From Nocardia sp. SYP-A9097 (GTDB taxonomy: Bacteria; Actinomycetota; Actinomycetes; Mycobacteriales; Mycobacteriaceae), in contig NZ_WJIC01000003.1 of assembly GCF_009649815.1 (NCBI RefSeq), forward strand, positions 434,001 through 498,000: a DNA stretch of 64,000 nucleotides, given 5' to 3'. The translations under genes and the position numbers were made by a program. Shown here one piece after another: positions 32,164 to 36,561 of this stretch. Below the pieces are notes generated by a model, which saw only the letters and a list, made by a program, of their open reading frames with translations, had not been told where the DNA came from and ran no database searches. Every line of letters begins with the position of its first letter. The first letter of the stretch is position 1.

Positions 32164-32961
32164 CTAATCTGCTGACGCACAACGACTTCGGTAGTGGCCG
32201 GGTGTGGTGCCGATGATGTTGGTGAAGGCGGCTATGAAGCCGCTGGGGTTCGACCAGCCGCAGGCGTGGGCGATGTGGGTGGTGGTGTGGCAGTCGGCGA
32301 GCAGGATGAGGGCGTGGTGGATGCGTAGTTGGGTGCGCCATTCATAGAAGGTCATGCCCAGTTCGGTGTGGAATAGGCGGCTCAGGGTGCGGGGGCTGGC
32401 ACCGATTCGGCGTCCGAGGTCGGCGAGTGGGGTGTTGTCGGCGGGGTGGTCGTAGAGGATTCGGGCAATGGCTTGCAGGCGGTCGTCGCGTGGTTCGGGG
32501 AGTTGTAATTGTTGGTCGGGGGTTCGGTGGAGTTCGTCGACGAGGACTCGGCGTAGGCGGACGCGGGCGGCATGGTCGGAGTCGAGGGGGTCGTAATTGC
32601 GTGGGCCGGTGAGGGTTAGCAGGATTTCTCGGGCCAGGTCGGAGACCATGAATACGGTCGGGTGGGCCGGTATCAGGCGGGCCAGGCCCGCGGGTAGGAA
32701 TTCGATTCGCATATCGGTGTTGCTGTGCGCGCGGTGGTAGTGCATGAATCCGGCGGGGGTCCAGGCGACTCGATTGGTGGGAACGATCGAGGTGCCTGCT
32801 TCGGTGTGGACCGACAGGACGCCGCTCGCCGCGTACACCAGGTGCCCACGTGGATGGGAGTGTGCCGAGCTCGTTCCGCCGGAAGGCCACAGGTGCACTC
32901 CGCCCGACGGCCATAACCGCGATGTCGGAACGGGCGGAGTGGTTTGGCGGCCAACGGGCAT
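32164..32961 (-). CDS. AraC-family transcriptional regulator
   Basis: A 265-residue regulator with an N-terminal cupin (SSAHSHPRGHLVYAASGVLSV, metal-binding style His) and two C-terminal helix-turn-helix motifs (PLADLGRRIGASPRTLSRLFH and ITHIAHACGWSNPSGFIAAF-like). ATG at 32961 gives the natural N-terminus. It is divergent from the MDR reductase gene with only 54 bp between starts, so it probably controls that gene. Confidence 0.87.
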   Translation of the reverse strand: MPVGRQTTPPVPTSRLWPSGGVHLWPSGGTSSAHSHPRGHLVYAASGVLSVHTEAGTSIVPTNRVAWTPAGFMHYHRAHSNTDMRIEFLPAGLARLIPAHPTVFMVSDLAREILLTLTGPRNYDPLDSDHAARVRLRRVLVDELHRTPDQQLQLPEPRDDRLQAIARILYDHPADNTPLADLGRRIGASPRTLSRLFHTELGMTFYEWRTQLRIHHALILLADCHTTTHIAHACGWSNPSGFIAAFTNIIGTTPGHYRSRCASAD

Positions 32962-33015
32962 AGTTTGGCATTCTATCGGTGGCCCGCCATACCGCCTCGG
33001 GACGACAGTGAACAC

Positions 33016-34014
33016 ATGAGCGAGAACGTGACGACAATGCGAGCGGCCGTCTGCGTCCGGGCGGGTGGCCCGGAGGTACTGGAGATCCGGGAGTTGCCAG
33101 TCCCCGTAGTCCGGGAGGGCTGGAGCCTGGTGAAAGTCGAGGGCGCGGGCCTGAATCGGTCGGAATTGCGGACCCGCCAGGGGCATTCCCCGAATGTGCG
33201 CTTCCCGCGTGTGCTCGGGATCGAATGCGTTGGAACCCTTGCCATTTCAACTTACCCCGCATTGCCCGAGGGGACGACCGTCGCGGCGGTAATGGGTGAA
33301 ATGGGCCGCGAGTTCGACGGCGGTTACGCCGAATACGCCCTGCTGCCGAACGAACTGCTGATGCCGATCAGTACCACCTTGCCCTGGGAAGTCCTGGCCG
33401 CCCTGCCTGAAACCTATCTGACCGCCCAAGGAGCCTTGGACGCATTGGGTATCACACCGAACACCAAGGCCCGCTTACTGATTCGAGGAGGATCCGCCTC
33501 GGTCGGTATGGCAGCCGCATCGATCGCGTCCGGATACGGCATCGAGACCGCGGCCACGACCCGCCAGCCCACCAAGGCCGCCGCATTGACCGCCGCAGGC
33601 ATCGACCACGTACTCCCCGACAACGGCGAACCCCTCGCACCGACCCTGCGGGACATCTGGCCCGAAGGCCCGGACTACATACTGGATCTCATCGGCGCCA
33701 CCACCCTGACGGACTCCCTGCGCCTGGTCCGCCGTGGCGGAACAGTGTGCATGGCAGGCTCCCTCAGCGGCTGGCTGATCCCCGACTTCGAACCAATAGC
33801 GATGATCCCCTCCGCCACCAAACTCACCGCATTCCACAGCGACGACTACAAGGGCACCGCAGGCGCACCCATCCTGCAGCGAGTGATCAACCAGATCGAA
33901 GCCGGCATCTACCACCCCAACATCGACCGAATCCTCAACCTGAAAGACATCGCCGACGCCCACCAATACATGGAAAACAACCAAGCCACAGGAAAACTCG
34001 TCGCAATACCCTAA
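33016..34014 (+). CDS. Zinc-independent MDR quinone-oxidoreductase-like protein
   Basis: A 332-residue medium-chain dehydrogenase/reductase. The N-terminal GroES fold includes GAGLNRSELRTRQG and VLGIECVG, and the Rossmann motif is RGGSASVGMAAASIA (near 157-171). Catalytic-zinc cysteines are lacking, so it belongs to the quinone reductase/enoyl reductase branch using NADPH. The substrate is unknown. A second in-frame ATG at 33037 (MRAAVCV) is possible. Codon use shifts toward CAA/ACC-rich codons in the 3' half. Confidence 0.85.
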   Translation: MSENVTTMRAAVCVRAGGPEVLEIRELPVPVVREGWSLVKVEGAGLNRSELRTRQGHSPNVRFPRVLGIECVGTLAISTYPALPEGTTVAAVMGEMGREFDGGYAEYALLPNELLMPISTTLPWEVLAALPETYLTAQGALDALGITPNTKARLLIRGGSASVGMAAASIASGYGIETAATTRQPTKAAALTAAGIDHVLPDNGEPLAPTLRDIWPEGPDYILDLIGATTLTDSLRLVRRGGTVCMAGSLSGWLIPDFEPIAMIPSATKLTAFHSDDYKGTAGAPILQRVINQIEAGIYHPNIDRILNLKDIADAHQYMENNQATGKLVAIP

Positions 34015-34877
34015 TTTCCGCTCTCGAGCCCGTCCGCCTGCAGCGGATACGGCACCCAGCGTTACCGCCGGGCTATTGGTACAGCGTCAGCACACACGGC
34101 GGGGAGGCGGCGACTCACCGCTGAGGCACTACTGACTGGTGGAGGTGATCATCTGCGGACAGGACGGGTTGTATCCGGCGCCTTCGTAGCAGGGTCTGGC
34201 GGATTACCTTCAGGCCCAGCGGGGTTCGGAGGATGGCCAAGATTCTTCGGAGTGGGAACCTTGCCTGCCGTACCCGGCTTTCGCTCCCCCTTTTGGGAGC
34301 CGCCCTCTCACCTCCCAGCGTGGCCGGATGGCCGTGGGAACCTTCTCGGACAAAGACCCCGAAACACCCGCGCGACACGCAGATACATACCTGGACAGGC
34401 GATCACCGGGAACTGAGCGTTGGATTTCGAGCCAAATCCAACGCTCAGTTCCCGGTGATCGATCGTCCAAGTCTCGAGCGGGTGTCGGCCCTACTCGTCC
34501 TGGCGCCTTTGTCTTGTCTTTTGTTCGTTTTGTCTTTTTTCGTTGTGGTTCTGAAGGTTCCCACAACCTTCCCGCCAGGCCGGGAGGTGCGAAAGTGCGC
34601 CTGATGAGGGGAGCGAAAGCCGGGTACGGCAGGCGACGCCACCAGCACTGCCGCGTTTGTCTTGATTCTCCCGAGCCCCGACCGAACGTGCTGTGCCGCA
34701 TGGTATTCGGCTACGAAGGCCCCGGGACCATTCCCGGGCCAGGCGAAGGAATCCGCTTCGCGGTGGTTGGTCGACTCGGGGCCAGAGACACGCGGAGCGC
34801 CATCACGCGACGAACCTCAGTAACGGCCAACTGTCTGGGCGGATTGAACCGCCCAGGGTTGGAAGACGGCGTGCGGT
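34015..34877. other. Non-coding stretch holding the inverted-repeat element
   Basis: About 860 bp between the MDR gene and the hypothetical gene. Apart from the repeat described separately I see no gene. Frames here lack homology-like motifs and are mirrored by the repeat symmetry. Confidence 0.6.
34220..34680. repeat. Large composite inverted-repeat element
   Basis: Two arms of roughly 200 bp face each other. The innermost 28 bases (34400-34427 and 34434-34461) are perfect complements around a six-base loop. An outer block of 27 bases (34263-34289 and 34608-34634) is also perfect. A GTGGGAACCTT/AAGGTTCCCAC block and other diverged matches lie between them. A T-rich, low-GC tract sits in the right arm (about 34508-34542). 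Short frames across it are by-products of the repeat. It may be two copies of one repeat in inverted orientation or a foldback/MITE-like element. Confidence 0.75.
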
Positions 34878-36425
34878 TCAGCGCGGGATGATGAGGTCTA
34901 CGTCGTCGACAAACGTTGTGATGTGGCCGTTTTCGACGAGATATACACCGCGTGTGATGGGGGCATTGCCGTAGGAATCGTCCTCGTAGGTGAGGCGGAC
35001 CAGGTGTTGGAATACCAGGGTTTGGCGGTCGTCGAGGTCGTAGGGGACGGCGGTGAGGCAGGTGCGGCGGGGGGTGGCGACCCATAGGCGTGCGGTGCGG
35101 AGTGCGTTGTGGGCGGTTTGCATGGCGTGGGGGTCGAGCACTTTTTCGGCGGAGAAGTCGTGGCCGGAGCAGTTGGCGATGGGGAGACCGTAGACTTCGT
35201 CGATCTCCCATTCGTAGCGTTGCAGTCCGGAGAGTCGCGCGATGGCTGCGGGTAGCATGAATTCGGTTTCGCGGCTGCTCTGGTCGTAACTTTGAACGGC
35301 GTAGCTGTCGCCGGTGTCGGCGGCCATGACGATGATCGGTGCGTTGCCGGATGCGCTGGGCCAGTGCGGAATTCGATCGCGATACGGCCAGTCGGCGGGT
35401 TGCAGCAGCGGGAATGGGTCGAACGGCAGTCGCACGTCGATGGGGTCGGTCGCGGGTCCATTCCCGGATTCCGCGGCGTTGCCGAGATCGATTTCGACCT
35501 GCGTGTCGGGTGTGAAGTCGAAGCCGTGCCGATGGACCCGCTGCTCGGAATCGATCTCCAGGATCGAATACTCGAGGGTGAGCCGGTTCTCGCTCAGCGC
35601 CTGCGCCAACTCGGGCCGCCGCGCCAGCACTCGCTGGAAATCCGGATCGGCCTGAATCATGGCGTGCGCGTACGCCAGACTGCCGCGGTCGACGATGTGC
35701 CCGTCGACATCGGTGCTCGCGGCCGGAATACCTTGCAGCCCTTTGAGATTCACGAACACATCCATCACGATCAGCCGGTCCCCGTCCATCCCGATGAAAT
35801 GCACCGTGTGATCGCGCACCGGCCAGCTCTCCGCGCCGCCGGTGAGGATTTCGACGCCCTGCTGTTCGAGCACGTGCACGCCGTAGACCATGGCGATCTT
35901 ATGGTCCTGCGTCTTGGCATCCCGATCCGACGAGCCGAGCAGCCGCCCCATATCGGTCAGTTCCAGGGCCGCGTCCGCATCGTAGTCGTGTATCTCGTCC
36001 CCGAATTCGCCGAACCCGATGCCGCGCGTATCGAGTTGCTCCCCGTTGTCCTCGATCCACGCTTGCGCGGTCAGTTCGAAAGGAAGCGCGACATCGAAGA
36101 TGTCGCGGATCCCCAGTATCGCCGTCGTCACGAAGGACTCGTAGTCGTCGAATCGCGCGGGCCACGGCAGCCGTCGGCTGGGCAGGTTGTCCTGGCCGGG
36201 CGCGAAGAGCGCCCACTCCAGCCCGCCGCCGTCACGCGTGAATCGCGCGGTCCGGCCTTGGCCGGGTGACAACATGATTCGCCCACCGAGCGGCAGGTTG
36301 AACAGCCGCCAGGTCAGCAGTTCCGCGTACGAGCCCCACAGTTCGTCCGCGACTTCCGGTGTTATCTCGTTGCGCGGCTCCCGTTCGCGCCGCCACAAGC
36401 TTCCCAGCCCCACCCGAAACTCCAT
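34878..36425 (-). CDS. Hypothetical protein, 515 residues
   Basis: A long soluble protein I do not recognise. It is acidic and rich in aromatic and Asp residues (FGEFGDEIHDYDADAALEL, DRLIVMDVFVNLKG), with no signal peptide, membrane helix or known nucleotide motif. The C-terminal part (VYGLPIANCSGHDFSAEKVL, YDLDDRQTLVFQHLVRLTYE) looks like a beta-rich ligand domain. ATG at 36425 is preferred over a TTG three codons upstream. It lies 137 bp downstream of the alpha-mannosidase on the same strand and may share its transcript. Confidence 0.7.
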   Translation of the reverse strand: MEFRVGLGSLWRREREPRNEITPEVADELWGSYAELLTWRLFNLPLGGRIMLSPGQGRTARFTRDGGGLEWALFAPGQDNLPSRRLPWPARFDDYESFVTTAILGIRDIFDVALPFELTAQAWIEDNGEQLDTRGIGFGEFGDEIHDYDADAALELTDMGRLLGSSDRDAKTQDHKIAMVYGVHVLEQQGVEILTGGAESWPVRDHTVHFIGMDGDRLIVMDVFVNLKGLQGIPAASTDVDGHIVDRGSLAYAHAMIQADPDFQRVLARRPELAQALSENRLTLEYSILEIDSEQRVHRHGFDFTPDTQVEIDLGNAAESGNGPATDPIDVRLPFDPFPLLQPADWPYRDRIPHWPSASGNAPIIVMAADTGDSYAVQSYDQSSRETEFMLPAAIARLSGLQRYEWEIDEVYGLPIANCSGHDFSAEKVLDPHAMQTAHNALRTARLWVATPRRTCLTAVPYDLDDRQTLVFQHLVRLTYEDDSYGNAPITRGVYLVENGHITTFVDDVDLIIPR

Positions 36426-36561
36426 CCGATACAAGACAACCGACGCAACCTAGCACTTGTTGGGTGATCGAGTGGGGTTGTGGCGGCGGCGCAGGCGAAT
36501 CACCGAGCGGATCCCTCCCGAAGGCTGTCGCGGTGGCACGGATCGCAACCCGCCATGCCGG

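Follow-up and report, generated by a model that had tools for sequence, protein, structure and literature searches.

A dispersed palindromic foldback of Nocardia with exchangeable outer modules and an apparent tie to DUF222 genes

Introduction

Genes for DUF222-HNH proteins are repeated in many actinobacteria. Among the closest described systems are the REP13E12 (13E12) repeats of Mycobacterium tuberculosis, DUF222-HNH genes present in multiple copies scattered across the genome of an actinobacterium; according to the accessible parts of two papers (PMC13061034, PMC10589994), these repeats, which hold the same kind of gene as the units reported below, recombine often and have no defined function. 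Two further groups are relevant to the locus described here: MITEs, which are short, gene-less, dispersed and intergenic with inverted ends, and the REP/BIME palindromes, including the RAYT "REPtrons" and "TIRtrons" of PMC3733652. A word search of the available text of a review of prokaryotic MITEs (PMC10969869) did not return Nocardia, and a similar search of the available text of PMC3733652, on REP/TIR elements with tyrosine transposases, returned no Nocardia, Mycobacterium or actinobacteria; one paper naming Nocardia farcinica (PMC5217627) was, in its accessible part, unrelated to the present repeat. No published description of it was found in a search that most subscription journals lay beyond, which is weak evidence of novelty; the repeat is apparently undescribed, a palindromic, mobile-derived intergenic repeat whose link with DUF222 genes is unusual.

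The element considered here is a foldback from Nocardia sp. SYP-A9097, hereafter the home genome (G000; G-, L- and C-numbers are labels for genomes, loci and contigs). The window is the whole stretch of DNA analysed, 64,000 nucleotides of contig NZ_WJIC01000003.1, and positions without a contig label refer to it.

Architecture of the window element

A preliminary description had placed a large foldback at 34220-34680, with a perfect 28-bp core hairpin, a perfect 27-bp outer block, diverged inverted homology between the two and a T-rich segment in one arm. Repeat searches and the sequence itself bore out each of these parts in position, and the foldback is real but larger: an outer inverted pair (34175-34190 / 34710-34725, 94%) lies beyond the limits first proposed and, since an information profile of 46 distinct flanks places the terminus nine bases further out, the whole element was taken as 34166-34734, that is, 569 bp.

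Regarding its parts, the left arm reads on the forward strand and consists of an outer module, M1, with its terminus (34166-34255; nhmmer with the M1 profile and information profile) and a conserved TAG at 34187-34189, an inner module, M2 (34251-34345), in which the left 27-bp block lies (34263-34289), and an A/C-rich linker recognised from the sequence (34346-34388). The core palindrome (34389-34472), which has relatives elsewhere in the home genome, is formed by two arms of 39 nt (34389-34427 / 34434-34472) that are 90% complementary, and includes the perfect 28-bp stem with its 6-nt loop, located in the sequence at 34400-34427 / 34434-34461. The right arm contains the T-rich linker (about 34506-34552, forward strand, from the sequence), of a type found in many other copies, followed by M2 (34553-34644) and M1 with its terminus (34643-34734; nhmmer with the M1 profile and information profile), both inverted on the reverse strand; this M2 holds the right copy of the 27-bp block (34608-34634), which is perfectly inverted with respect to the left one. 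Between the core and the block, the diverged inverted homology corresponds to the pair 34306-34345 / 34553-34592 (83%).

The fold of 34175-34725 was computed at -321.5 kcal/mol, whereas 100 dinucleotide shuffles averaged -217.6 (sd 6.7); the resulting z was -15.4 and none of the 100 shuffles folded as well, so the fold is far beyond chance.

As for its surroundings, the element is flanked by a convergent pair of genes whose stop codons are each about 150 nt away and whose 3' ends point towards it: one of the zinc-type alcohol dehydrogenase family on the forward strand (32944-34014), and one of 518 aa on the reverse strand (34878-36434). The product of the latter had no Pfam match at E 0.001, and the gene had matches longer than 300 bp, partial and distant, in only four other genomes of the 59 searched.

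The repeat family in Nocardia

In the home genome (9.05 Mb in 104 contigs), the whole window element had 97 matches, confirming the dispersed copies for which the preliminary description had proposed a search. The concern that the foldback might be an assembly duplication was dispelled, because related copies occur at many loci with different flanks and in other genomes too. When the arms were aligned, they ended at a shared outer terminus, and most flanks outside it had nothing in common. The information profile, built on 46 of the 62 flanks found after leaving out 16 near-duplicates, gave the M1 terminus as GGnwTGtACCCGGGGCCTTCGTAGC, with the end nine bases further out. Each arm follows the same plan, with the outer M1 of about 80 nt plus its terminus and the inner M2 of about 92 nt, which contains the 27-bp block.

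The middle is less uniform. The arms are separated by linkers, either A/C-rich or T-rich, and by a core with strong self-complementarity in most copies; cores of the home genome belong to at least three unlike sequence families; in an automatic stem search over 24 copies, only short core stems of 5-10 pairs were detected in L017, L024 and L029. Cores of the same family as that of the window recur with M2 nearby on C45, C64, C96 and C86 (twice), and without M2 on C13 and C40. The preliminary description had spoken of conserved ends and a variable middle, and this holds, with the addition that the middle differs in sequence yet remains mostly self-complementary, a pattern that would fit selection on shape or hairpin-templated homogenisation.

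The outer modules can be swapped: M2 is also paired with outer modules other than M1, and in many elements the two M1 ends fold differently. By hand count, the home genome has ten inverted M2 pairs less than 700 bp apart, and a further pair 1.8 kb apart that encloses a DUF222 gene. Two units of 87 and 146 bp lie between two M1 termini (G000 C1:537870-537956 and C16:89640-89785) and are apparently internal-deletion forms of the foldback.

A sequence-only M2 model matched 59 places of the home genome, 28 of G097, 45 of G137 and 19 of G129. M2 was present in 102 of the 148 Nocardia genomes sampled, home genome included, and in none of 118 sampled genomes of the same order outside Nocardia; the order-wide search covered 121 genomes, the other three being Nocardia, two of them with M2. 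This distribution, limited to Nocardia among the genomes sampled, sets M2 apart from REP13E12. When named genomes were scanned with a pattern, the ten stretches obtained were all from Nocardia: one in N. crassostreae, six in N. acidivorans, two in N. acididurans and one in N. jejuensis. Plasmid and phage records had no match to the element. Loci L209 and L210 of G129 contain M2 in alternating arrays with a spacing of about 100-200 bp, which form very long nested hairpins.

L017 of the home genome and L116 of G097 are orthologous copies of one foldback, in which identity is 79-87% for the arms, 79-82% for the flanking coding sequence, 76% for the core and 68% for a linker. The identity of the arms hints at, and does not prove, a constraint acting on them.

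Several contig ends of the draft assembly fall in this family. Six of them (C26/L043, C37/L035, C48/L033, C57/L040, C69/L037 and C100/L032) have a near-alike M2 with a type B outer module, and C43 and C45 begin inside DUF222 genes that are 96% identical where shared; repeated DUF222 units appear to break the home-genome assembly.

Occupied and free sites

The evidence of presence and absence comes from copies of the family other than that of the window. The host genes concerned are, judging by their protein sequences, putative hemE, hemG, gcvP and ilvD. At the hemE junction (40 genomes searched, 30 loci fetched), three loci were occupied, 22 were free and five were not judged; G097 had a DUF222 unit there, G011 another that was accompanied by M2, and G019 a partial foldback (M1, M2 and core), while at the 22 free loci hemG followed 6-874 bp on, with no M1 or M2 match. 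At the gcvP junction, again with 40 genomes searched and 30 loci fetched, only the home genome was occupied, and the other 29 loci (23 from Nocardia, six from other genera) had no M1, M2 or DUF222 match. The unit that follows gcvP is orthologous in the home genome, G097 and N. acidivorans, with 85-88% identity over about 3 kb.

With gene ends assigned by a codon-composition rule instead of a gene finder, 42 of 60 M1 termini faced the 3' end of a gene, 16 a 5' end and two neither; a stop codon lay within 20 nt at 20 of the 60, and in six the host frame ended on the TAG of the terminus itself. With 11 loci left out because they had DUF222 flanks or were orthologous duplicates, 45 termini remained; of these, 29 still lay at 3' ends versus 14 at 5' ends (binomial p = 0.03), and 13 had a stop codon no more than 20 nt away, versus 1 of 200 control points; the controls, random non-coding points of the window, were divided 63 (3') to 111 (5').

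Target-site duplications showed no excess in 15 elements compared with 300 random controls. The longest flank match was 0 nt in five elements, 3 nt in five, 4 nt in three, 5 nt in one and 8 nt in one; the last, at L010, is GC-rich and off register, and 5 of the 300 controls reached at least 6 nt.

DUF222 genes between the same ends

The window copy has no DUF222 gene inside. In the home genome, one M1-M2...M2'-M1' pair of 2.0 kb encloses a DUF222 gene of 502 aa in place of the core, and the same M1-M2-DUF222-M2'-M1' order occurs in G097 (L120, L121) and in N. acidivorans (L140); other DUF222-HNH genes have M2, or an entire foldback, on their 3' side. There are 11 DUF222 matches in the home genome, four of which run off contigs; M2 lies 3' of all six genes whose 3' sequence extends for 885 nt or more, and about 0.5 kb from a seventh. 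Among the matches listed, M2 lies 3' of DUF222 in four of five in G097 (5 of 13 matches) and in six of seven in N. jejuensis (G024; 7 of 13 matches), in the latter species in the orientation opposite to that of most home-genome cases. Loci of G097 had mostly been picked for M2, and its count given here rests instead on the listing of DUF222 positions.

Four DUF222 genes at different loci of G097 are each followed by an M1-M2 end. The upstream pieces shared by these four units (about 0.5 kb) are 97.1-98.6% identical. Of their foldbacks, three share 94.0-97.5% identity and the remaining one about 78-80%. The shared sequence of three units, L138 not being counted, begins 11-16 nt past the end of a long host frame. 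On the left ends of DUF222 units (upstream of L135:1577; L065-L067), a conserved stretch, TTCTGAAT..TATCACAATAGAATTC.., lies after the host stops and before the start codon, often inside a GAAAGGC...GCCTTTC inverted repeat.

Outside the home genome, a set of 29 DUF222 loci had a strong M2 on the 3' side in one case (L092) and a weak one in two (E 0.007-0.009); the 26 loci without M2 include L079 and L089, with no 3' sequence, L076, with 258 nt of it, and L099, with an unresolved frame. Across the 148 Nocardia genomes, DUF222 was present in 25 of the 26 with at least eight M2 matches versus 77 of the 122 others (Fisher p = 0.0004, Spearman 0.35), with kinship ignored and M2 counted among the matches listed, at most 29 scored places per genome. 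Yet G129, with its 19 M2 places, is not among the 102 DUF222-positive genomes, and the 45 places of G137 stand against a single DUF222 match.

Four DUF222 proteins were scanned for domains. PF01844 (HNH) was above the cut-off in three (L135, L063 and L159), each of which also had PF02720. As for M1-bounded DUF222 proteins, Pfam scored DUF222 and not HNH in L158, and likewise in L027, where an HNH-like motif was seen by eye only. In NCBIfam, the same three HNH proteins also gave weak matches, well short of the cut-off, with the HNH portion of the RNA-guided nuclease IscB (E 4e-5 to 5e-6), which probably reflect the shared HNH motif only. Group IIC introns insert just after terminator hairpins and carry an HNH-type endonuclease domain; the likeness to them amounts to one weak, non-significant phmmer match between a DUF222-HNH protein and a maturase (E = 0.41) and, unlike these introns, the four scanned proteins had no reverse transcriptase domain and the window no ribozyme match. 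No DUF222 relatives were confirmed in viral contigs. An AlphaFold model of a DUF222-HNH protein from three sequences (mean pLDDT 44) was too poor to use.

Mobility and the nature of the mobilising enzyme

Sequence comparisons give good support to the mobility of the repeat family: there are dispersed copies with shared ends, exchange of outer modules, alike DUF222 units at different loci, presence or absence at given junctions and a bias towards gene 3' ends. The preliminary description had suggested a mobile miniature element, and much of this stands, namely the dispersed copies, the sharp conserved terminus, the presence or absence of other copies at orthologous junctions and the gene-bearing units with the same ends; the usual MITE signature, on the other hand, does not, as target-site duplications are not in excess and a recognised transposase partner is lacking. 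The Nocardia foldbacks resemble MITEs in being short, gene-less, dispersed and intergenic, with inverted terminal repeats common to the dispersed short copies, and larger relatives with the same ends exist; unlike MITEs, these relatives enclose a DUF222 gene and no recognised transposase.

Our preferred reading, tentative and at somewhat less than even chances, is that the window element is one copy of a modular palindromic mobile family of Nocardia, composed of DUF222 or DUF222-HNH units and of gene-less foldbacks moved in trans. In it, the larger units would carry the gene where the foldbacks have a self-complementary core, and both forms would settle just 3' of genes, beside stop codons. 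A DUF222-HNH protein, or a lost relative of it, would mobilise the gene-less copies in trans by recognising their hairpin ends; hairpins downstream of genes, or sites close to them, would probably be cut, the element being copied in during repair, and copies kept between convergent genes may serve as two-way 3'-end structures. We infer that DUF222 proteins may be the movers, and the DUF222-HNH protein is the best candidate because DUF222 is the sole gene type inside the M1-bounded unit (one unit) found at home; the inference is weakened by the fact that most sampled DUF222 genes elsewhere in Nocardia lack M2. A bolder version, in which DUF222-HNH proteins would be enzymes of an unrecognised mobile class, with hairpin ends, no target duplication and homing to gene 3' ends, the foldbacks their non-autonomous passengers and the REP13E12 repeats of tubercle bacilli relics of that class, is unlikely, and the reversed M2 orientation in N. 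jejuensis lowers its weight. The window copy itself is a possible non-autonomous relative of REP13E12-type units, and not a member of them.

Nearly as likely as mobilisation by a DUF222-HNH protein, and thus also short of an even chance, is a palindromic MITE/BIME-type repeat moved by an enzyme unrelated to DUF222, with DUF222 units settling at the same gene 3' ends and acquiring M2 by nesting. The abundance of M2 in G129 and G137, where DUF222 is undetected or nearly so, the 26 of 29 sampled DUF222 loci elsewhere that lack M2 and the exchangeable outer modules all favour it, but the M1-bounded unit of the home genome contained no other gene, in a search for other enzymes that was non-exhaustive, and the M1-M2-DUF222-M2'-M1' order recurs at orthologous and other sites in three species. 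A REP-like element moved by a RAYT-type Y1 (HUH) tyrosine transposase is the least probable of the explanations considered. The family resembles REP/BIME and RAYT systems in being palindromic, in lying 3' of genes, in its alternating modular arrays (G129) and in the GTAG directly before the stem-loop of M1, a tag also borne by the REPs treated in the accessible part of PMC3733652; unlike REPs, the units are far longer, the palindrome adjoining GTAG being part of a 550-bp foldback. Five of the six M2-bearing genomes searched had no Y1 transposase match, which makes this route unlikely, and the only one of the home genome is not beside any listed M1 or M2 copy. This single match (IS200-type) is a frame of 145 aa at G000 C6:46560-46922.

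Whatever moved the element, a present role chiefly as a two-way structure for transcript 3' ends, whether terminator or mRNA-stabilising hairpin, under selection between convergent genes, is improbable: it would agree with the bias towards gene 3' ends and stop codons, with the placement of the window copy and with the arms of the L017/L116 orthologs being as conserved as the flanking coding sequence, but an insertion preference alone gives the same bias, the ortholog comparison covers one copy in two species, and the intrinsic-terminator pattern had no site in 33900-35000, a scan that T-less terminators would escape. An independent structured RNA gene, the other suggestion of the preliminary description, is very improbable in spite of the very stable fold; the window had no Rfam match at gathering scores, and no promoter-like site was detected with a sigma-70 pattern, a weak test in Nocardia. 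In consensus folds of the mixed-type alignments, two-sided changes affected one of eight pairs in M2 (56 sequences) and none of nine in M1 (34 sequences), and with so little covariation in these alignments no selection on RNA structure is claimed.

Implications

In the accessible part of PMC13061034, the REP13E12-type repeats of M. tuberculosis are gene-conversion hotspots described without a defined function; the ends that the gene-less foldbacks share with DUF222 units, whose nuclease-type gene is little understood, suggest how palindromic repeats of the Nocardia kind may spread. Because this gene-less family shares those ends and has both occupied and empty sites across species, whether a DUF222 protein is the mobiliser, and where it would cut, can be tested directly. 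As for Nocardia, the genus gains a repeat family that marks gene ends and is present at many contig ends of a draft assembly.
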